Part shown: positions 1-11,080 of the stretch, piece by piece
Numbering within the stretch: position 1 is the stretch's first letter
How the letters are laid out: every line of letters starts with the position of its first letter
DNA from: an uncultured Burkholderiales bacterium
GTDB taxonomy: Bacteria; Pseudomonadota; Gammaproteobacteria; Burkholderiales; Burkholderiaceae_D
Direction of reading: 5' to 3'
Assembly: GCA_903904635.1 (NCBI GenBank)
Contig: CAIVDH010000359.1
Location: forward strand, 1 to 11,221
Length of the DNA: 11,221 bases
Made by a program: the position numbers and the translations under genes
Notes under the pieces: model-generated
Told to the model about the DNA's origin: nothing
The model's database searches: none
Seen by the model: the letters and a program-made list of their open reading frames with translations, nothing else

Positions 1-1121
1 CTTTTATCGCCCCAATAGCCCATCATCACGCAATCACTACGCGTGACCACTTCGCCAACTACGCCTGATGGCAAAAAATCACCGGCTTCATTCATAATTT
101 TTACCTCAGTACCTGAGCGCGCATAGCCGACAGATCCAAGTCGCAAAAGTCTGCCATCCATATCATCAACCAGATGCAAATACTTGGACAATCCGGTAAT
201 CGTCATAGGTGATTCACCCTGGCCGTATAGCTGATAAAGCCTGGGGCCAAATACCGCCAATGCCTCTTCAAGATCAGCCACATACATAGGCGCACCGCCA
301 TAGTGCAGACACTTGATATTTTCAGGCCGCATAGCTCCAACTGCGTCGCTGTGAATCAACCTCGTTACCATGGTCGGCGCAGCAAACATCGAAACGGAAG
401 TGTGATGATTAATACAAGCGATGACTTCTTCTGGTTGAAAACTGCTCAGAATAATCTGATGACCGCCAGCCAAAATATGCGGCAAACTGTACATGCCCGA
501 ACCATGGGAAAGTGGCGCTGCATGCAGTTGCGTATCACCCGGCCAAATTTGATCAACGTCGGCATAATAGGCCTGACACATGAAGAGCAAATTGCGATGA
601 CTGAGCATCGCGCCCTTGGGGCGGCCGGTCGTGCCACTGGTATAAAACAACCAGGCCAGCGCAGCAGGCTCGAGCTGCATAACAGACGCTGGCGTTGTAT
701 CAAGCATGCGCTGATAATTTTTTGCGCTATCCTCAGCAACGACAATCCGATGCGCAGGTAAATTAATAAGCGCGCAATCCGCGAGCACACTTGCCAATGT
801 ATACGAGACAAACGCAAATTGCGCATCGCAATTCTGCGCAATGAACGCCACTTCTTTAGGATGCAGTTTCGCATTCACCGGCACAGCACATAAACCGGCA
901 GCCCAACACCCAAAAAGAATTTCAAAGAAACGCGGTTGATTTTCCATCAAGATCAGCACACGATCCCCAGGCTTTAGGCAATGATCGTGACGTAACGCGG
1001 TAGCAATCGCGGTCATGCGATTGCACAAATTACCAAACGAGAGGTGGAATCCGTTGCCGCTGACCGCTGGCGCATTGGGCATGCGGCGCGCCACTTGCAC
1101 AAGCAGGGCAGCCAGACTCAT
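1..1121 (-). CDS. AMP-dependent acyl-CoA synthetase/ligase, C-terminus cut off by the window edge
   Basis: Member of the adenylate-forming (ANL) superfamily, expected to activate a carboxylic acid with ATP and join it to CoA in the cytoplasm. The ATG at 1121 opens 373 codons without a stop to the left edge. The P-loop motif A3 is YTSGTTGRPKG (residues about 160-170) and the A5 motif is YGQGES (about 299-304), where many relatives have YGxTE. Near residues 352-371 the segment GVVGEVVTRSDCVMMGYW matches the region just before motif A7. The A7 aspartate, the hinge and the catalytic lysine (A10) lie outside the window; the family's usual length of about 510-550 residues implies roughly 140-180 missing. 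It starts 11 bases after the stop of the preceding ligase, so it belongs to the same operon, although no good Shine-Dalgarno is visible. The sequence is clearly different from the neighbouring ligase, so it is not a recent tandem copy. Substrate is unknown; a medium/long-chain or aromatic acid is equally possible. Confidence 0.9.
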   Translation of the reverse strand, partial: MSLAALLVQVARRMPNAPAVSGNGFHLSFGNLCNRMTAIATALRHDHCLKPGDRVLILMENQPRFFEILFGCWAAGLCAVPVNAKLHPKEVAFIAQNCDAQFAFVSYTLASVLADCALINLPAHRIVVAEDSAKNYQRMLDTTPASVMQLEPAALAWLFYTSGTTGRPKGAMLSHRNLLFMCQAYYADVDQIWPGDTQLHAAPLSHGSGMYSLPHILAGGHQIILSSFQPEEVIACINHHTSVSMFAAPTMVTRLIHSDAVGAMRPENIKCLHYGGAPMYVADLEEALAVFGPRLYQLYGQGESPMTITGLSKYLHLVDDMDGRLLRLGSVGYARSGTEVKIMNEAGDFLPSGVVGEVVTRSDCVMMGYWGDK

Positions 1122-1132
1122 AAAGGCTGCGC

Positions 1133-2908
1133 TTAAGCAGTCACTGGGGCTGACAGCCCTAGTTTTTTAATCAAGCTTGCACGCAATGCAAACTTCTGCG
1201 GCTTACCTGTTGCCGTATGTGGAAACGCATCAACAAATTCTATATAGCGCGGCACTTTGTAATAAGCGATCTGATCTTTGCAAAATGCCTGCAAGGCAGC
1301 GGCATCCAGTGCATGATCAGGCCGCAAAATCACGCAGGCTGCGACCTCTTCACCAAACTGAGCATCAGGCACACCAAACACTTGCACCTGCATCACTGCC
1401 GGATGACGCAGCAAAAATTCTTCCACTTCACGCGGGTAAATATTTTCACCACCGCGTATCAGCATATCCTTCACCCTGCCAACGATGTTGAGATAACCAT
1501 CGTTATCTAACACTGCCAAGTCCCCGGTATGCATCCAGCCTGCAGGATCAATTGCCTCGGCTGTTTTAGTGTCATCTTTCCAGTAACCGCGCATCACCGC
1601 ATAGCCGCGTGTGCACAACTCACCAGACTGTCCAACCGGCACAATACGACCATCGCGATCAATAATCTTTGCTTCACAATGCGGCTGCACTCTGCCTACA
1701 GTAGAAATACGGCGCTCCAGCGTATCACCAGGATCAGACTGAAAGGAAATGGGCGCCGTCTCTGTCATGCCATAAGCAATCGTGACTTGTTGCATATGCA
1801 TTTCGCGAGTAATGCGCCGCATCGTCTCAACAGGACAAGGCGCGCCCGCCATAATGCCCGTGCGTAGCGAGGATAAATCGACACTGCCAAACTCAGGATG
1901 CTCAAGCATGGCCACAAACATCGTAGGCACACCATGCAGAGCCGTGCAACGATGCTTTGCCACTGATTGCAGCGTCTGCAAAGCATCAAATCCCTCAGAG
2001 GGGAACACCATCTTCGCGCCACTAGCCACAGCGCACAGCACACCCAGCACCATGCCAAAACAATGATAAAGCGGCACAGGAATACAAAGCGTATCTCTGG
2101 CAACTAACGCCATCGCCGCGGCACAAAAGCGGGCATTATTAAGAATATTAAAATGTGACAGCGTGGCACCCTTGGGCGAACCTGTGGTGCCACTAGTGAA
2201 CTGAATATTGATCGCGTCATCCGGATCCAGCGCGGCACTCAAGCCATCCAGCCTGGCCATATGCGCAGGACCGGCCATAGCCAGCACTTCAGCATAAGAC
2301 ATACAACGCTGAGGTACTTGCACCGGCTCCGACACTGACCCAGAATCCAGCAAAACCACATGCTTCAAATCCGGCAGACGCACGCTATCAACCACGCCCT
2401 TCGTACCCGGCAAATGCAGCTCAGGCATGATGGCCGAGAGCATACCCAAGTAATCGCCAGTTTTGAAACTGCGCGCCATAATCAGCGCACGACAACCCAC
2501 TTTTTTCAGCGCATATTCCAGCTCTGACTGCCGGTAAGCCGGATTAATATTGACCAGCACCAGACCAATGCGTGCAGTCGCAAATTGCGTGACCAGCCAT
2601 TCATGTCGGTTAGGTGCCCAGATACCAATACGATTACCCTTGCGCAGTCCCATCGCCAGCAAACCTGCTGCCAGCCGATCAACCCGCGCCGATAACTCAT
2701 ACCAGGTAAGACGCAAATTTTCGCTATCAAACACAGCCGCATCATGAGAGCCATGCTCACTCACACAGCGCTTGAAAAATTCAGGAATCGTCGTAAATTC
2801 AAGCGCAGGTGCAGACGCACCAACCACATAAGACAGCGTCCCCTTAGGCTTGGCGCCGCCGTGCGCCTGCGTATCGAGCCAATCTGATTTAAAGGGATTG
2901 CTACGCAT
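1133..2908 (-). CDS. AMP-binding acyl-CoA synthetase (FadD/ACSF2-like), full length
   Basis: A 591-residue adenylate-forming enzyme that would convert a free carboxylic acid to acyl-CoA through an acyl-AMP intermediate. All core motifs are present: A3 [11 protein letters not shown] (237-247), A5 YGMTETAP (379-386), A7 HTGD (460-463), hinge/A8 [20 protein letters not shown] (477-496) and A10 TATGKPQK (565-572), with the likely catalytic lysine at 569. Length and motif order fit medium/long-chain fatty-acid-type ligases such as ACSF2 rather than acetyl-CoA synthetases, which are longer. The ATG is 5 bases after the stop of the ATPase-amidase gene and has no recognisable Shine-Dalgarno, which suggests translational coupling. 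Following an amidase, the likely job is to activate the acid released from the amide; that is inference from context. The true acid (short-chain, fatty or aryl) cannot be read from sequence. Confidence 0.93.
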
Positions 2909-2913
2909 AAGAA

Positions 2914-5436
2914 TCAGAAATTACGCCAGTCGCCAAGTTGCTCAAAGGCGTGCGCTGCACGATAAATTGTCGACTCATTAAAATGCGCCGCAGTCAGCTG
3001 CATACCAATTGGCAAACCAGCGCTCATACCGCACGGTACATTCATTGCAGGATGGCCGGTCACATCAAAGCCCTGCGTATTGGTAAGCATCTCAAAACCA
3101 CGTTGGCAATACAACTCCAGCGACGCATCCATAGGCGGCAGTGGCGTAGCCTTCATCGCTGTAGTCGGCATCAGCAGCAAATCACAACGCGACAGCGCAT
3201 CGTCATAAGATTTGCGCAATGCGCGCGCGAGGTTTTGCGCCTTTGCATAAAAATGGCCACGATGCTCTTTAATGCCATATTCACCGACCATCATCGAAAC
3301 TTTTAGCGTGCGCGAAAGATCATTAGCGCGAGCGCGCCAGTTCGCATGTGCATCGAGCAAACTAGTCGTATACAAACCTTCCCAGTTAAAACCCATGCCA
3401 TTACCATGCATCATCTGCGCGACCAAACCTTCAAGCGCAATCGGCGCCCAAATAGCTCCGCCATCCAAATGCATAGGAACCGAAATCTCTTCAACTTGCG
3501 CACCCAGCGCACGCAAACGTTCCGCAGCCTGCCTGACTTTTTCCATCACATCCGGCTCGCATCCCATCGCCTCGAAACCTTCAATTACGACACCTATGCG
3601 CAGACCTGCCACACCGCGCCCCAGCGCAGCGGTATATTTTTCAGTGCGCACGTTGTACTGACGCGGATCCAGGCCGTCAGGACCCGCAATCACTTCCAGT
3701 AGCAGCGCATTATCAGCAACGGTCGCTGTCATCGGACCGGCATGATCAATGGTTGCTTCTATCGGCATCACGCCGGTGTAGGGAACCAGACCATGGGTGC
3801 CCTTCATGCCATAAATGCCGCACCATGAAGCAGGAATACGGATCGAACCACCCTGATCCCCGCCTATCGCCATTTCAATTTCACCAGCACCAACCAGCGC
3901 GCCGGAGCCGCTGGAAGAACCGCCTGCTGAATAACCCATACGATAAGGATTGTGTACCGGGCCTGAAGAATTTGTATGGCTGCCGCCGGAAAGACAAAAA
4001 TGTTCGCAATGCGCCTTACCTGCAATCGTGCCGCCTGCATCAAGAATTCGCGCAACCAGCGTTGCATCCACATCTGGCACATAACCTTCGAGCGTGCTCG
4101 AGCCATTCATCATCGGCACGCCCGCCAGACAGATATTGTCTTTCAAGACCACACGCTTACCAGCCAGCGGACCATAAGGCGCGCCCTTCACCTCAGACTT
4201 GACTGCCCATGCGCCCAGCGGATTATCACGCGCAGATGGTTTCATACCAGGCGTGCGCGGATAGCGCACTTCCGGCAAATTGTCCGGCAGCTGCGCAATA
4301 CGATCATAGGCATTGAGCGTGCTGTCGACTACGGCCAGATAATCACTGACCTCAGCATCCGACATACTCATATGAAGAGAGCCCACTATTTTTTTCAATT
4401 GCTCGTGAGTAGGCCGCTTAACTTGCGTCATGAGTTCACCTCGTTGATAGGATTCTTCTGGCATCGCGCGCGCAGCAGTGCGCGATGCGTTTGGTGTTTG
4501 CTTGGTAGCAGAGTAGTCGCGCGCAGGTGTTGCCTGATGCGGCGACTGATAAGCAGTGTTCTGACTCGATGAAAAATTATGCTGGGTAGGTGATGCCGGC
4601 GCATTGGCGCGCGGTGCCGCAGCAGCATGAGTTTGCGCTGCCTTCGGTGCAGTTGAACGCGGCTTGTTGTCACGCGTCATACGCGCTGCACCCATGCCCA
4701 TTAATTCAGACAAACCGCCAGCACCAATAGCCGAGACCGACATCTCGCGCTCTATGCGGCCACGCTCCATCACAAAAATTCTGTCGGCCACATCCAGCAC
4801 CAAATCAAGATTTTGCTCAACCACGATCAATGACAATTTTTCGCGCTTGCGTAGCCCACTCAGAATCTCACCGATCTCCTGCACGATCGATGGTTGTATA
4901 CCCTCTGAAGGTTCATCTAACAACAGCAACCAGGGCGCCGGCATCAATGCCCGCCCCAGCGCCAAAATCTGCTGCTCACCACCGGAGAGCGCACCACCTT
5001 TGCGGTCCAATACGCTATTCAAGCGCGGCAACGTATCCAATACCCGTTCCAGCGCCGCCTGTTCGGTGTCACCTGAATCTGCAGACCAGCCCAATCGCAG
5101 ATTTTCTAAAGCAGTCAGTCCGGGCATGATGCCGCGACCTTGCGGCACATAGCCTATGCCCAACTGGCTACGCTCATGTGCCTTGGTATGCGTGACATCC
5201 AGACCATCAATCGTAATGCGCCCGGCTTTTGCCGCCACTAATCCAACCAGCGTTTTCATCAGCGTAGACTTGCCCATGCCATTGTGGCCAACAATGCCTA
5301 TCGCTTCGCTTTCATGCAATTGAAATGACACACCCTGCAAAACCGGAATGCCAGAATAACCGGCACGCAGCTCAGCCACATCAAGCACTACATCGGTGCC
5401 GCCAGCGGCCGTCGTGTCAGACTTAAATGACGTCAT
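2914..5436 (-). CDS. Fusion protein: UrtE/LivF-type ABC transporter ATPase + amidase-signature hydrolase
   Basis: One continuous 840-codon frame with two complete enzymes. Residues about 15-252 are an ABC ATPase of the branched-chain/urea type: Walker [10 protein letters not shown] (50-58), Q-loop VPQG (97-100), signature LSGGEQQ (150-156), Walker B LLLLDEP (170-176) followed by SEGIQPSI as in UrtE, and the E-Q switch pair VVEQN (205-209). Residues about 253-335 are a low-complexity Ala/Pro/Ser/Thr/Gln/Asn linker, probably disordered. Residues 336-840 (505 aa) form an amidase-signature enzyme, with the Lys/cis-Ser/Ser triad at K432 (VLKDN), S507 (GGSSSGSG) and S531 ([12 protein letters not shown]). 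These spacings equal those of Rhodococcus nitrile-pathway amidases (K96/S171/S195). Motifs such as DVTGHP (791-796) and the helical N-terminus also fit that subfamily. It should hydrolyse an amide to acid plus ammonia. Its ATG overlaps the stop of the preceding ATPase gene (ATGA), with GGGAG/AGGG sequence upstream. The fusion is the unusual point; the two halves are normally separate genes. Confidence 0.92.
4432..4442 (-). promoter_or_regulatory. Internal ribosome binding site before an in-frame ATG at the amidase start
   Basis: On the minus strand GAGGTGA (4442-4436) is followed by ACTC and then ATG at 4431-4429, which is codon 336 of the ATPase-amidase gene. Seven bases match the anti-Shine-Dalgarno, and this is stronger than the signals before most other starts in the operon. 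The codons after this ATG ([12 protein letters not shown]) look like the natural N-terminus of an amidase. This is either a remnant of a formerly separate amidase gene or an active internal start giving a free 505-residue amidase. Confidence 0.6.
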
Positions 5437-6158
5437 TTAGCCCTGCTCCCTATGTACACTTCGCGCACCTTCTGATCTGCCAGCACTTCATCAACCGGAC
5501 CTTCACGCAGAATTGCCCCCTGATGCAGCACCGTTACTTTGCCACCCAGCATGCGCACAAACTGCATATCGTGATCCACCACCACAATGGTTGATTTCTG
5601 ATTAACCTGATGAATAATTTCAACCAGTCGGTCTGCTTCAGCGCTGGTAATGCCGGCAGCCGGCTCATCCAGCAAAATCAGCCACGGCCGCTGCGCCAGC
5701 ACCACACCAATTTCCACTAACTGACGCTGACCGTGAGCAAGCTCACCTAACTGTCGCCGCGCTATCGCTTCCAGACCAACTTGCGTAATCACTTCCTGTA
5801 TCACTTCGCGTGTGGCCGCTGGTGAATTCACGCGACGTGCAGAGAGCCATAAATTTTCTTCTACCGTTAAGCTGTTCATCACCGATGGCGTCTGGGTCTT
5901 AATACCCACGCCGAGCCGCACAATATCGTAAGGACGCCAGCCAGTCACATCCTGACCACGAATAAAAACCCGGCCACTGTTATGACTGACAGCGACTTGA
6001 CCCGTAATACATTTGAAGAAAGTACTTTTACCTGCGCCATTAGGGCCAATCAGGCAGCGCAACTCGCGTTCACGCAAATTGAAATTAACATTATTGACAG
6101 CATGCACGCCGCCAAATCTGACTGACAAATCACGGGTTTCAACGACAGAATCACTCAT
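5433..6158 (-). CDS. ABC transporter ATP-binding protein, UrtD/LivG type
   Basis: A 241-residue cytoplasmic ATPase that would pair with the ATPase half of the next gene to drive the two permeases. Motifs seen: Walker A GPNGAGKST (38-46), Q-loop glutamine near 89 (KTQTP), signature ELAHGQRQ (139-146), Walker B LILLDEP (160-166) and H-loop histidine 196 (VVVDHD). The signature reads LAHGQ rather than LSGGQ; LSHGQ-like variants followed by QxxEIG are characteristic of UrtD-type subunits and point to the urea/short-chain-amide branch rather than to a classical amino-acid LivG. The ending VYIGS is typical of the family. The start overlaps the stop of permease 2 by four bases (ATGA) and is preceded by GAGGA with a 6-base spacer. 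Its own stop overlaps the start of the fusion gene in the same way, so the three products should be made in linked amounts. Confidence 0.93.
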   Translation of the reverse strand: MSDSVVETRDLSVRFGGVHAVNNVNFNLRERELRCLIGPNGAGKSTFFKCITGQVAVSHNSGRVFIRGQDVTGWRPYDIVRLGVGIKTQTPSVMNSLTVEENLWLSARRVNSPAATREVIQEVITQVGLEAIARRQLGELAHGQRQLVEIGVVLAQRPWLILLDEPAAGITSAEADRLVEIIHQVNQKSTIVVVDHDMQFVRMLGGKVTVLHQGAILREGPVDEVLADQKVREVYIGSRAK

Positions 6159-7207
6159 ACGCCATCCTCGTGATTGCGCCTGCGCCGACGCGTGCCACTC
6201 GTCTTGCGTCGCAAAATAGCCGCCTGCTCGCGACCCAGATACCAGCGCTTAAATGTAGGCACGATACCGCTGGGTAGCAACAACACCACCAACACCAATA
6301 TCAGCCCCAGCAACAGCGAGTTATCAATCAGCGTCTGCTCACCAAGCAAAAGCTTTAAAGAGCCCAGCACGATTGCACCTAAAATCGGACCAACCAACGT
6401 GCCCAAACCACCCACAATCGTCCAGATAATCACTTCAGCAGATTGCCCCAGACTGAACAAACCTGGCGTGACGATTTCGGCCCAGTTCGCAAACAGGCAA
6501 CCAGCCAACCCTGCCATCGCAGCACTCACCGTAAAAATGCCCGTCTTGTACAGCGGCGCGCTATAGCCTAGCAACTCCGTACGCACTTCATTTTCACGTA
6601 TGCCGATTAACACACGACCAAAATAAGAACTCAGTATCCAGCGCGAGATCAAATAACAAATCAACAGCGCAGCGGCGGCAACATAATAAAGCCCGATACC
6701 GTAAATCTGTATACCAGGATCACCCGGCACATTCAAAATCGGAAAAGCCGGAATACCATTAAATCCACCCAGACGCGCGTCGCCAATACGATAAGCATCG
6801 CCCGCAGTGGAATTTATATATTTAAATAAAATCAGCGTGACCACCAGCGTGATCACACCCATATACACATCACTAATGCGACCATAAAACATCATCGCAC
6901 CAATCAGCCCTGCAAAAATAGCCGGCACCAGCATCGCAAGAATCAGGGGCACCGTGCTCTCGCCAAAATTCATCGAGGCCACTGCATACGTATACGCTCC
7001 CAGACCAAAATAAGCGGCATGACCAAAACTGAGTATGCCCGCATAGCCCCACATCAGACCCAGCGACAAAGCAAACAGCGCCCAGATCAGCAGCACCGTA
7101 CTCGTGTTGACATCATAGAAGGCCGGCAGCACCAGCAAAAACAGGCAAGCTAGCGCAAACCAGATCCAGCTTATGCGACCTGTGCCAAACGTAGAAGTGA
7201 TGTTCAT
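6155..7207 (-). CDS. ABC transporter permease, LivM/UrtC type
   Basis: A 350-residue integral membrane protein, the second permease of the importer. Hydrophobic segments run through most of its length, beginning at about residues 13-30 and 36-54. The family motif region LSFGHAAYFGLGAY (59-72) and the cytoplasmic coupling loop around GIRENEVRTELLGYSAPLYK (202-221) are clear, as is IWTIVGGLGTLVGPILGA (261-278). The start overlaps the stop of permease 1 (ATGA). No Shine-Dalgarno is visible, so initiation probably depends on coupling. The C-terminal tail from about residue 333 is strongly basic with five consecutive arginines (340-344), and its coding sequence also carries the ribosome binding site for the following ATPase gene. 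Transport direction is import; the substrate is inferred from its partners. Confidence 0.92.
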   Translation of the reverse strand: MNITSTFGTGRISWIWFALACLFLLVLPAFYDVNTSTVLLIWALFALSLGLMWGYAGILSFGHAAYFGLGAYTYAVASMNFGESTVPLILAMLVPAIFAGLIGAMMFYGRISDVYMGVITLVVTLILFKYINSTAGDAYRIGDARLGGFNGIPAFPILNVPGDPGIQIYGIGLYYVAAAALLICYLISRWILSSYFGRVLIGIRENEVRTELLGYSAPLYKTGIFTVSAAMAGLAGCLFANWAEIVTPGLFSLGQSAEVIIWTIVGGLGTLVGPILGAIVLGSLKLLLGEQTLIDNSLLLGLILVLVVLLLPSGIVPTFKRWYLGREQAAILRRKTSGTRRRRRNHEDGV

Positions 7208-8070
7208 GCTGAGTTTTTGAAGAATCGGCCCGTAATACCCTGCGGCATAAGGCGTAACAAAATAATGGCCAGCGTGAGCATGGCGATCTCACCGACCACA
7301 GGCATGAAAGCAAAAGAAGCAATCTGGTTCACTGCACCGAAGAGCACAGAACTCGACACCGTACCCGTAATAATGGCTGCACCACCCGTGATGACGGTGA
7401 TGAAAGACTTGGCAATATACGCACTACCAACAGAAGGAAGCAAGCCCGTCAGCGGAGCCAACACGCCACCGGCCAATCCGGACAAGGCGGCACCGACGGT
7501 AAAGGTCCACATATAAATACGTTCAGGGTTGTAACCCAGCGAAGCGGCAACATCACGATTTTGCATCGCACCGCGCGCAATCAAACCCACTCGCGTGAAA
7601 CGCATCACCATCCACATTGCCAGCAACAACAAAATGGCAATACCAATGATGAAGAGGTTATAGCCACCCATCTGGAACTGACCAATCTCATAAAAACCGA
7701 TCGGTGCCTGCACGCTAACTGCAGAATTTCCGAATATGAGCGTAATCAGACCAACGATAAGCAAACTCAGACCCCAGGTCGCCAGCATCGTATCGATCAA
7801 GCGACCATACAGAAAACGAATCACGATACGCTCAACCAGCAAGCCCATCAGACCCACAACCAAAGGCGCCACCACCAACATGGAAAACCAGATATCCAGC
7901 CCGGCATGAAAGCAAGCGATGGTCGTATAACCACCGACCATCACAAACTCACCATGCGCCAGATTAATCACACGCATCATCCCGAACACAACAGCCAACC
8001 CCGCACTAGTCAGTGCGAGGAAGGCAATCATATAAAGGATTTCCAGCACAACCACTGCTGCATAGTCCAT
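7204..8070 (-). CDS. ABC transporter permease, LivH/UrtB type
   Basis: A 288-residue membrane protein, the first permease of the importer. The motif NLAHGEFVMVGGY (36-48) is the hallmark of LivH/UrtB permeases. The cytoplasmic coupling loop RGAMQNRDVAASLGYNPERI (166-185) is followed by the conserved segment SGLAGGVLAPLTG (197-209). The rest is made of long hydrophobic stretches, consistent with about eight membrane helices. The start has GGAG 9 bases upstream and lies 49 bases after the stop of the binding-protein gene. A short UrtB-like protein without the large N-terminal extension of cyanobacterial and some proteobacterial UrtB proteins fits either a urea/amide or an amino-acid importer; the adjacent binding protein and ATPases favour the amide side. 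Confidence 0.92.
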   Translation of the reverse strand: MDYAAVVVLEILYMIAFLALTSAGLAVVFGMMRVINLAHGEFVMVGGYTTIACFHAGLDIWFSMLVVAPLVVGLMGLLVERIVIRFLYGRLIDTMLATWGLSLLIVGLITLIFGNSAVSVQAPIGFYEIGQFQMGGYNLFIIGIAILLLLAMWMVMRFTRVGLIARGAMQNRDVAASLGYNPERIYMWTFTVGAALSGLAGGVLAPLTGLLPSVGSAYIAKSFITVITGGAAIITGTVSSSVLFGAVNQIASFAFMPVVGEIAMLTLAIILLRLMPQGITGRFFKNSA

Positions 8071-8119: not shown

Positions 8120-9346
8120 TCAGACCGTCACTTCAAACTGCTTGTTTTCTTTCGGATTCTTAATCAGATCACATGAACGCCCAGTATCAGAAGGCTGACG
8201 CTGCTTGGATGTGCTCTTGATCGTCAGCTTCTGGCCTTTGACTTCCATCACATTGATATCCAATGCAGCGTGGTGCGTCTTAGGATCGATAGAGACGGTA
8301 CCAGATGGTCCCTCGATAGAAACACCTGACTCAATTGCCTTGAGCATCGCATTGCGTTCCAGCGAACCCGCTTTGCGCACGCATTCAGCCCACAGCATCA
8401 CGCCTTGATACTGAGACACCGCAATTTCATGCACCTGCTTGGTGTCACCAAAACGCTTGGCCCACTTGGCGAGGAAGTTTTTGTTCGAAGCGTTTTGCAA
8501 TTCCTGGCTGTAGTTACCAGTAATCAGAATGCCGTCACCTTCAGCAGCAGACAAAGCGAGTTGCTCATTGCCGGCACCGAACACGGTAGCTGCTAATGGA
8601 ATCTTTTTGTTCATGCCTGAAGCTGCCCACTGGCGATAGAACGACATATGCGCGCCACCAACTAAAGCCGACACCACAAAGGCTGGCTTCTCTTGCTGAA
8701 TCTTGGCGATGGTTGAACCAAAGTCAGCCACATCGAGCGCGAAGAATTCTGTCTTGGCGACTGAACCGCCACGCGCCTTCACATAAAAATCTATCCACTT
8801 TGCCGTGATCTGACCGTAGTTATAGTCAGCAGCCAGTACGTATACTTTTTTGCCCCACTGCTTCATTGCAGTTTCAATCAATGGCTCAACAGCTTGTGCC
8901 GGCGTGGTACCAGTAACAACGGTGTTGCGATCGCAAACGCCGCCTTCGTACAGTACATTATAAAAATACAGCGTATTGGAACGGGTAAATGTCTGACGGA
9001 TCGCTTCGCGTGACGCAGAAGTGATACCACCGTGGACTACATCAACTTTGTCCTGACGAACAAGTTGTTGTGCAAATTTTGTGTAAAGCGCAATGTCAGA
9101 CTGCGTGTCATATTGAATCGCTTGCAGCTTGCGACCCAGCAGGCCACCGGCAGCATTGATTTCATCAACGGCCAATGTCGTCGCCATCACCATAGGCTTG
9201 CCATAAATATCAAGGTTGCCAGAATTGTCCAGCACTGAACCAACTTTGATTGGACCATCTGCAGCAAATGCATCAGCGAACGGTATAAAAGAACCAAGTG
9301 CAGCTCCGGAAACTGAGCCTAGAAATTGACGACGATTAAAAGTCAT
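8120..9346 (-). CDS. Tat-exported periplasmic amide/urea-type substrate-binding protein (UrtA/FmdD/AmiC family)
   Basis: A 408-residue type-I periplasmic binding protein that would capture the solute and deliver it to the permeases. The N-terminus carries a twin-arginine signal (NRRQFLG, residues 4-10), a hydrophobic stretch and a likely cut after AFA near residue 28, so it is probably exported folded. The mature part begins IKVGSVLDNSGNLDIYGKP, typical of the family. TSASR (109-113), FYNVLYEGG (128-136) and DYNYGQ (174-179) align with landmarks of UrtA, the urea-binding protein, and of the amide-binding AmiC/FmdD group, and differ from the leucine-binding LivJ/K pattern. The last 30 or so residues are rich in Lys and polar residues. 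The start has GGGAG 8 bases upstream. It is the first gene of the transporter-amidase operon. A short-chain or other amide ligand is inferred; a branched-chain amino acid is less likely. Confidence 0.9.
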   Translation of the reverse strand: MTFNRRQFLGSVSGAALGSFIPFADAFAADGPIKVGSVLDNSGNLDIYGKPMVMATTLAVDEINAAGGLLGRKLQAIQYDTQSDIALYTKFAQQLVRQDKVDVVHGGITSASREAIRQTFTRSNTLYFYNVLYEGGVCDRNTVVTGTTPAQAVEPLIETAMKQWGKKVYVLAADYNYGQITAKWIDFYVKARGGSVAKTEFFALDVADFGSTIAKIQQEKPAFVVSALVGGAHMSFYRQWAASGMNKKIPLAATVFGAGNEQLALSAAEGDGILITGNYSQELQNASNKNFLAKWAKRFGDTKQVHEIAVSQYQGVMLWAECVRKAGSLERNAMLKAIESGVSIEGPSGTVSIDPKTHHAALDINVMEVKGQKLTIKSTSKQRQPSDTGRSCDLIKNPKENKQFEVTV

Positions 9347-9445: not shown

Positions 9446-11080
9446 TTATTTTTCCTGAGATTTTTTATTCGCGGCTGGCGTACCCTGATCTCTCAGCGGA
9501 GTCACAGCAGAAGATAAATCCACACCAATGGCATCGCCTATGGTTTTCAAAGCAGGCAATTGCAAAGCCATGCCCATGATGCTGTCCATCACTTGCGTAA
9601 CTGGCGGCTTGGAATTATTACCACCGTTGCCGCCGTTACCACCCTCACCAGCATCACTCAAATGGGAAGAACCACCAAAACCATTCACCTGATGTATACG
9701 GATACTGTCGATTTTTTCAGCTGGCTTCATCATCTGCTCAACAATGCCCGGCAATCTATCCAGGCGATATTGTTCCAGCTGCATATGCATGAGTTCAGCC
9801 GAGCGCGAATTTTCAGCGTTAATGACAGCACGCGTGCCTTCAGACTCCGCCTGCAAACGTATACGATCGGCTTCAGCAGTAGCGCAGGTTGCTTCTGCCT
9901 CTGCCTTGGTGCGCATCAGCAGAACCCGGGTTTCAGAATCTGCCTTGGATGATTCAACTTCGCCGCGTTCCTGTTCACGCATTAAAGCAATCTCACGCGA
10001 ACGTTCTGCCACGGCGCGCTCACGCTCAGTTTGCAATCTCTCCTGCGCCAACACGATTTCAGTGCGTGCATTTTCAGCCTTGGCTTCTGCATGCGCTTCT
10101 TCTGCATGCTTGCCAGCCAAAGTAATTGCGCTTTCCACTTTACGAATTTCAGAGCTCAACTGCGCATCAATTTCCATCTGGCGCAAATCACGCTGCTTAT
10201 CAATTTCAGCCTGACGAATTTCTTTTTCACGACCAAGCCTGGCGCTTTCTGATTCAATCATCGAAGCCTCACGCGCACGTGCAGTTTCAGCATCACTGGC
10301 GGACTTCATTTTTTCAATTTCCAGGCGCTGACTAATCTGCGCCTCTTCTTCTTGTCGGGAGATCTCCAGCCGCTGCTTGATCACTGACAGTTGAGTCTGT
10401 CGCACCGATACTTCCGCATCAGCTTCAATCTCAGCGCGTTTCTTTTTACTGTCCGCGATAATCTCAGCCAACTTGCGCATGCCCACTGCATTAAACGCAT
10501 TGTTTTCGTCCAGTGATGCAAATGCAGCCTGATCAAAGCGCGTAAGCGAGACTGATTCAAGCTGAATACCACTGTGGGCAAGATTATCTCTAACTGATTC
10601 GCTGATACGGCGCACAAACTCGGCGCGTTGTGTGTGCAGGTTATCCATCATCTCGCTCGATGCAATCGCCTGCGTTGCATCGACAAACCGGCCTTCAAGC
10701 AGATTACGTACACCATCCGGGCTCAGTGATTTTGAGCCTATAGCCTGAGCAGCAGTGGCCACGCCATCCATCGTAGGCTGCACGCGCAGATAAAATTCAA
10801 TTTCAACATCGACCCGCATACGGTCGCCGGTAATGAGCGATTTAGGGCCGGAACGTGCAATTTCTATACGCATGGTGCGCATATTAATTTCATCGACTTT
10901 ATGCAGAAACGGCAGGGCTAGACAGCCGCCTGAGAGAATAATTTTTTGACCGCCAAAACCGGTACGGATAATCGCCACATCTCGCGAAGTTTTCCGATAA
11001 AACCGATTAAGGAATGCAACAAGAATTGCGACTACGAGGATCGCAAGAATAAAAAGAAATAACGCAGCGATAATTGCCAT
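9446..11080 (-). CDS. Flotillin/YqiK-like SPFH-domain membrane protein
   Basis: A 544-residue scaffold protein of the flotillin family, which forms oligomers in membrane microdomains. Residues 4-24 are a single hydrophobic anchor, followed by basic residues. An SPFH/band-7 domain covers about 30-200 (landmarks AIIRTGFGGQKIILSGG and RMRVDVEIEFYLRV). Residues about 205-450 are a long charged Ala/Glu/Arg-rich coiled coil with repeated EAEA/RA-type heptads. The C-terminal part holds a glycine run GEGGNGGNGG (478-487), then a mildly hydrophobic segment (494-527) and a polar tail. Size and domain order match E. coli YqiK and bacterial flotillins. An NfeD/YqiJ-type partner often sits beside such genes, but none is seen here; it could lie to the right of the window. 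The start is preceded by GAGGGTGGG. It is separated from the transporter operon by 99 bases and a hairpin, so a functional link with amide uptake is not established. Confidence 0.92.
   Translation of the reverse strand: MAIIAALFLFILAILVVAILVAFLNRFYRKTSRDVAIIRTGFGGQKIILSGGCLALPFLHKVDEINMRTMRIEIARSGPKSLITGDRMRVDVEIEFYLRVQPTMDGVATAAQAIGSKSLSPDGVRNLLEGRFVDATQAIASSEMMDNLHTQRAEFVRRISESVRDNLAHSGIQLESVSLTRFDQAAFASLDENNAFNAVGMRKLAEIIADSKKKRAEIEADAEVSVRQTQLSVIKQRLEISRQEEEAQISQRLEIEKMKSASDAETARAREASMIESESARLGREKEIRQAEIDKQRDLRQMEIDAQLSSEIRKVESAITLAGKHAEEAHAEAKAENARTEIVLAQERLQTERERAVAERSREIALMREQERGEVESSKADSETRVLLMRTKAEAEATCATAEADRIRLQAESEGTRAVINAENSRSAELMHMQLEQYRLDRLPGIVEQMMKPAEKIDSIRIHQVNGFGGSSHLSDAGEGGNGGNGGNNSKPPVTQVMDSIMGMALQLPALKTIGDAIGVDLSSAVTPLRDQGTPAANKKSQEK

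Follow-up and report, generated by a model that had tools for sequence, protein, structure and literature searches.

The locus and its fusion gene

The window (the whole 11,221-nucleotide stretch of DNA analysed here) carries an importer gene set in which one ATPase is joined in frame to an amidase, preceded by a flotillin-type gene and followed by acyl-CoA ligase genes. The features, all on the minus strand, are as follows, in the direction of reading:

9446..11080, minus strand: flotillin-type protein (PF15975, PF01145), in the same place as in other fused operons
8120..9346, minus strand: substrate-binding protein, UrtA-like (below cut-off; PF13433, PF13458)
7204..8070, minus strand: permease, UrtB/LivH-like (below cut-off; PF02653)
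6155..7207, minus strand: permease, UrtC/LivM-like (below cut-off; PF02653)
5433..6158, minus strand: second ABC ATPase, UrtD/LivG-like (below cut-off), with a 4-nt ATGA overlap with the fusion gene
2914..5436, minus strand: ATPase-linker-amidase fusion gene, 840 codons
4687..5436, minus strand: UrtE/LivF-type ABC ATPase half, residues 1-250 (PF00005 at 33-177; 1ji0 match at 14-235)
4432..4686, minus strand: variable linker rich in Ala, Pro, Ser and Thr, residues 251-335, about 85 residues
4436..4442, minus strand: Shine-Dalgarno-like GAGGTGA inside the frame, 4 nt before the internal ATG
4429..4431, minus strand: internal in-frame ATG, predicted second start, residue 336 (Met in 121/121 proteins)
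2914..4431, minus strand: predicted free amidase, 505 codons (NF005565 positions 2-505 of 506 at residues 338-839)
1133..2908, minus strand: AMP-forming acyl-CoA ligase (PF00501, PF13193), conserved directly behind the fusion gene
3..1121, minus strand: second AMP-forming acyl-CoA ligase (PF00501), cut by the contig end

The first-pass annotation had proposed that a transporter ATPase and a complete amidase share one 840-codon frame, and this is confirmed: on the minus strand the frame runs from an ATG at 5436 to a stop codon at 2916-2914, giving 840 amino acids without internal stops, while a plus-strand reading of 2914..5436 is interrupted by stops. Both Pfam domains are found in the protein: ABC_tran (residues 33-177) scores 108 bits against a cut-off of 25, and Amidase (residues 414-824) 309 bits against 27. 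The curated NCBIfam model NF005565 (PRK07235) aligns with residues 338-839, covering its positions 2-505 of 506, and scores 796.8 bits against a cut-off of 545, which places the second half among PRK07235-type amidases; as the model is covered almost throughout and far above its cut-off, the amidase half is a full-length, whole enzyme. Three residues which we take to be the catalytic Lys and two Ser of the amidase signature, K432, S507 and S531, are all present here, as this amidase type requires, and are invariant in 24/24 aligned fusions. The closest solved structures are those of a Rhodococcus amidase of the same family (3a1k/3a1i), which aligns with residues 365-834 of the fusion; presumably the three residues correspond to its K96, S171 and S195, whose spacing is equal, and 3a1i has Ala where the fusion has S531. 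The Rhodococcus chain is 521 residues long and has no ATPase, unlike the enzyme of the window, which forms one chain with an importer subunit.

On inspection the ATPase half shows stretches that we assign as Walker A, the LSGGE signature and Walker B. The earlier claim that all catalytic motifs are intact holds for these and for the three amidase residues, but not for the place that we assume to belong to the H-switch His found in many ABC ATPases, where the fusion reads VEQN and its unfused partner ATPase (5433-6158) reads VDHD. The same VEQN occurs in 1ji0, the best solved relative of the ATPase half, and for that reason it looks like a family trait rather than damage.

The importer is of the HAAT type in the broad sense: one operon encodes a binding protein, a pair of BPD_transp_2 permeases and a pair of ABC_tran ATPases. 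ATGA overlaps of four bases join three of the gene pairs (5436/5433, 6158/6155 and 7207/7204), and the set therefore reads as one operon. This is the same five-gene set as in UrtABCDE and Liv systems, from which it differs in that one ATPase carries an enzyme and all five proteins score below the cut-offs. The urea importer UrtABCDE was rejected as an identity for the system, all five proteins falling under the curated Urt cut-offs (UrtE 245.7 against 285.8, UrtD 254.2 against 304.1, UrtC 191.2 against 296.2, UrtB 201.8 against 250.3, UrtA 237.2 against 492.75). So was the Liv branched-chain amino acid importer (LivF 151.3 against 441, LivG 153.8 against 362, LivM 82.7 against 366, LivH 54.1 against 379). 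The initial label of the ATPase as UrtE/LivF-type thus stands as a resemblance and not as membership of either family. The putative substrate is probably an amide. A comparable arrangement has been described in Bradyrhizobium japonicum, where a Urt-like five-gene cluster lies beside amidase genes, as here, and was read by its authors as importing an amide other than urea (PMC3098086). The genes there are separate, however, and the amidases belong to other families, namely formamidase PF03069 and PF00795 (PMC3098086).

Spread, neighbours and ancestry of the fusion

The protein database search suggested earlier found both Pfam domains in 120/120 of the best of 7969 protein matches under the E-value limit, at lengths of 791-888 amino acids. 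Read as DNA, 24 fused loci including the window (20 among loci L001-L100 and four from an order-level search) contain no stop between the halves; one of them, L046, ends at its contig end inside the amidase. In the scan of named genomes the best 80 of 587 relatives were kept. Fused loci were found in Burkholderiales, a Chromatiales symbiont (L016), SAR324 (L029), a Xanthobacteraceae MAG (L027) and the isolate Limnohabitans sp. T6-20 (L079). When the two best candidates per genome were scored, a full-length fused match was found in 1/392 genomes of the window's GTDB family and 1/369 of its class (in both cases the window's own genome), and in 6/399 genomes of its order. Searches of the genera or families of three fused relatives found no further fusions. 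The fusion gene is thus patchy in distribution, and its horizontal spread is likely. Among the papers listed by the literature searches, no title or abstract opening described this ATPase-amidase fusion.

An artefact of assembly or binning that joined two genes might be suspected from a window that is the whole of an 11.2-kb contig, from a genome 88% complete, with the fusion present in just this genome of the 392 searched in its GTDB family. Its probability is negligible, since one 93%-identical and many 70-79%-identical fusions come from other sources (among the matches listed), and fusions lie on a 3.0-Mb chromosome record (a MAG, L021) and on a 1.3-Mb contig of the Limnohabitans isolate. 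At 0.53, the GC content of the window's locus (L001) falls within the range of seven other loci from this genome (0.49-0.53). The independent fusions refute an artefact as the origin of the architecture itself.

Same-order genomes (L010-L014 and L107-L137 except L110), three of them in the window's genus, hold unfused relatives of the amidase, ~53-60% identical, without a LivF-type ATPase directly before them. Separate yet adjacent ATPase and amidase genes occur in related operons of Rhizobiales, actinomycetes and Rokubacteria. Among 118 amidases scoring above 500 bits, 23 are fused, 31 are separate and directly behind a LivF-type ATPase, and 64 lie elsewhere; the gap in the 28 adjacent pairs measured is 22-155 nt in 27 and 258 nt in one. 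A quick tree was built from 104 of these amidases, the 118 having been thinned by 14 stand-alone rows; in it the fused label needs two changes, so that the fusion was either born once and undone once, or born twice. One starred branch holds the 23 fused rows and a single stand-alone gene from Cupriavidus basilensis (L033, 3529-5061), sister to the Limnohabitans fusion, which is possibly an undoing of the fusion or else marks its second origin.

The gene order common to the fused loci is flotillin, binding protein, two permeases, ATPase, fusion and acyl-CoA ligase. Simple gene calling missed some operon genes in GC-rich loci; neighbours were counted by tblastn (1e-20). A flotillin gene lies upstream in 10/11 fused loci with at least 9 kb upstream, and also in the window and L046; the window's protein is a flotillin by Pfam cut-offs (PF15975, Flot, 120.1 against 27; PF01145, Band_7, 61 against 23.6). 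An acyl-CoA ligase lies directly behind the fusion in 22/23 fused loci. In split adjacent operons with room, the same search found flotillin in 0/26 and the ligase in 0/30. The only fused locus with room that has neither flotillin nor ligase is L021, in which tblastn did not find a similar binding protein either. The pairing of flotillin and fusion is an association and not proof of joint function, because one clade may have inherited one operon and the tree is close to a single event.

The operon of L017 is followed by a further amidase and a further ligase, together with a thiolase and a relative of enoyl-CoA hydratase, which fits a route from amide to acid to acyl-CoA and on to beta-oxidation. 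Distant second amidase-signature genes, 28-31% identical to the fused amidase, are found past the ligase in L017 (14075-15472), L016 (14088-15500) and L024 (13992-15464), and for that of L017 none of the best listed NCBIfam models reached its cut-off. Relatives of the window's second ligase (3-1121), 48-49% identical, stand at a similar place in L017, L018, L023 and L026.

The junction between the two halves

The linkers of 121 proteins are 47-117 residues long, with abundant Ala, Pro, Ser, Arg and Thr. For comparisons between lineages, the 24 fusions were clustered at 90% identity in the first 160 residues of the amidase, and a single member of each cluster was taken, 13 in all. Their linkers are barely more similar than shuffled sequences: over 78 pairs the identity is 0.462 against 0.436, and z exceeds 3 in 4 pairs. 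AlphaFold2, run on the whole fusion with 24 sequences, gave a weak model (mean pLDDT 52, pTM 0.36), fair for the ATPase and below 50 at residues 245-342, which weakly suggests a flexible linker; much of the amidase core was low too, despite a solved homologue.

The end of the linker behaves differently. Met336 is kept in every one of the 121 proteins, at the start position of unfused amidases, and Gly stands three residues ahead of it in 119/121. The window reads GAGGTGA-ACTC-ATG at this junction, and in other lineages the purine-rich stretch is read as other residues (AGAS, GGEN, PGGI, PGET, SGVT, QGVF, EGKY). What is new here is that the linker is scrambled across lineages while its end is conserved. 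The gene thus carries both marks of a two-product gene, a conserved internal start codon and a Shine-Dalgarno-like (SD-like) signal.

Several comparisons bear on this signal. Ranked against ~800 in-phase positions of the same gene, anti-SD pairing at the junction gave p 0.005-0.17 in the 13 lineages, with weak ranks in two (L025 0.15, L079 0.17), and 9e-9 combined; combined p-values treat the lineages as independent though they share ancestry. None of the 13 lineages uses GGC for the junction Gly, compared with 39-84% GGC across these genes as a whole (product 1.6e-6 from own-gene usage); this is the lowest count among 75 conserved Gly columns, the next having 4. Predicted mRNA at the junction is more open than the gene mean in 13/13 lineages (mean z 1.62). 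When 789 columns were ranked, a control that shares the ancestry of the compared rows, the four with the strongest SD pairing were residues 336-339 and the seven most open all lay within 336-346, while other SD-like places (150-152, 374, 533-534) were not, or hardly, open. Fused junctions (23 genes) have a mean SD energy of -7.49, similar to the inferred starts of adjacent amidases (31 genes, -7.00) and of stand-alone ones (62 genes, -7.58); two of the 118 amidases, in which no start lay close to the predicted position, were omitted. By absolute folding energy the predicted mRNA is less open at the junction (mean -14.9 kcal/mol) than where unfused amidases begin (-11.4 and -11.8), base composition being unmatched. 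Recoding seven codons by own codon usage gave single-gene p-values of 0.05-0.78, which are not significant, and in 2/24 fused genes the recoded versions were on average stronger than the natural site. The start-like signal is conserved at the nucleotide level.

Three other explanations of the junction can be weighed against these data. The gene may make a single polypeptide, with one amidase per importer and no internal initiation, the tether alone providing co-localisation and the start signal being an idle leftover of a split ancestor. With an open frame across the junction at 24 loci, the long protein should indeed be made, but Met, pairing, codon choice and openness persist beside a linker scrambled to near-shuffled identity, along with which an idle signal should have decayed; we therefore regard this explanation as rather unlikely. 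Intragenic SD-like stretches have also been proposed, with dispute, to slow ribosomes, and the stretch might be a pause site that lets the ATPase fold first, the Met being unused as a start. Its location at a domain border would suit such a role, which nevertheless predicts neither an invariant Met at the amidase start nor open mRNA around it, and we consider it improbable. Cleavage of the linker by a protease into separate ATPase and amidase, finally, would be in keeping with a linker that is long, variable and of low predicted order; it is still more improbable, as a common linker motif was not seen and the nucleotide-level signal is left unexplained.

A proposed pair of products: tethered and free amidase

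The reading that we favour, at a probability of roughly 0.68, is that this is a two-product gene, predicted to encode both an importer-tethered amidase and a free 505-residue amidase. Initiation at the first ATG would give the 840-residue protein, a LivF-type motor subunit whose flexible linker carries the amidase on the cytoplasmic side. The in-frame ATG at 4431 has an SD-like signal of its own, and initiation there would give a free amidase identical to the tethered half. Both forms of the enzyme would hydrolyse the imported amide to acid and ammonia, and the acid would then be activated by the acyl-CoA ligase encoded next door. We infer from the gene sequences the use of the internal start by ribosomes, an amide as the substrate, and the pairing of free with tethered amidase. 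Amidases of this type are usually dimers; if this one is too, a free subunit could fill the second place of the dimer without pairing two transporters.

Tethering had been proposed from the outset, and part of that proposal holds: a genuine and conserved fusion is present, and the operon order fits import followed by hydrolysis, since importer genes come before the fusion and an acyl-CoA ligase after it. Its fixed one-to-one ratio of enzyme to transporter has become doubtful, because the amidase's own conserved start-like signal inside the frame predicts extra free amidase. Channelling of the substrate and trapping of the product by the tethered amidase are best treated as what we infer from the architecture.

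Long proteins with a shorter C-terminal product from the same frame, acting within one machine, have been described in other systems. The long and short forms of SpaO are reported to act together, both having been shown experimentally (PMC13059759), and the short form of cas8b, Cas11b, is reported to arise from an internal Met, both products likewise having been demonstrated by experiment (PMC11899642). The present case differs in that its long form combines a transporter motor with an entire enzyme, and in that the short form is a prediction.

Flotillins have a role in bacterial membrane microdomains. The genes might, more speculatively, encode a membrane-bound processing station, in which flotillin gathers the importers, each of them bearing one tethered amidase, this amidase forms an asymmetric dimer at the pore exit with a free copy from the internal start, and the ligase takes up the acid; we hold this to be unlikely as a whole. 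If it were true, one gene would determine the tethering as well as how much second subunit is available. The constant flotillin neighbour suggests a concrete client for bacterial membrane microdomains, and an enzyme covalently joined to an importer motor offers a direct test case for import-coupled catalysis. The conserved internal start, if truly used, would mean that an oligomeric enzyme can be kept tethered while the transporters are not locked together.
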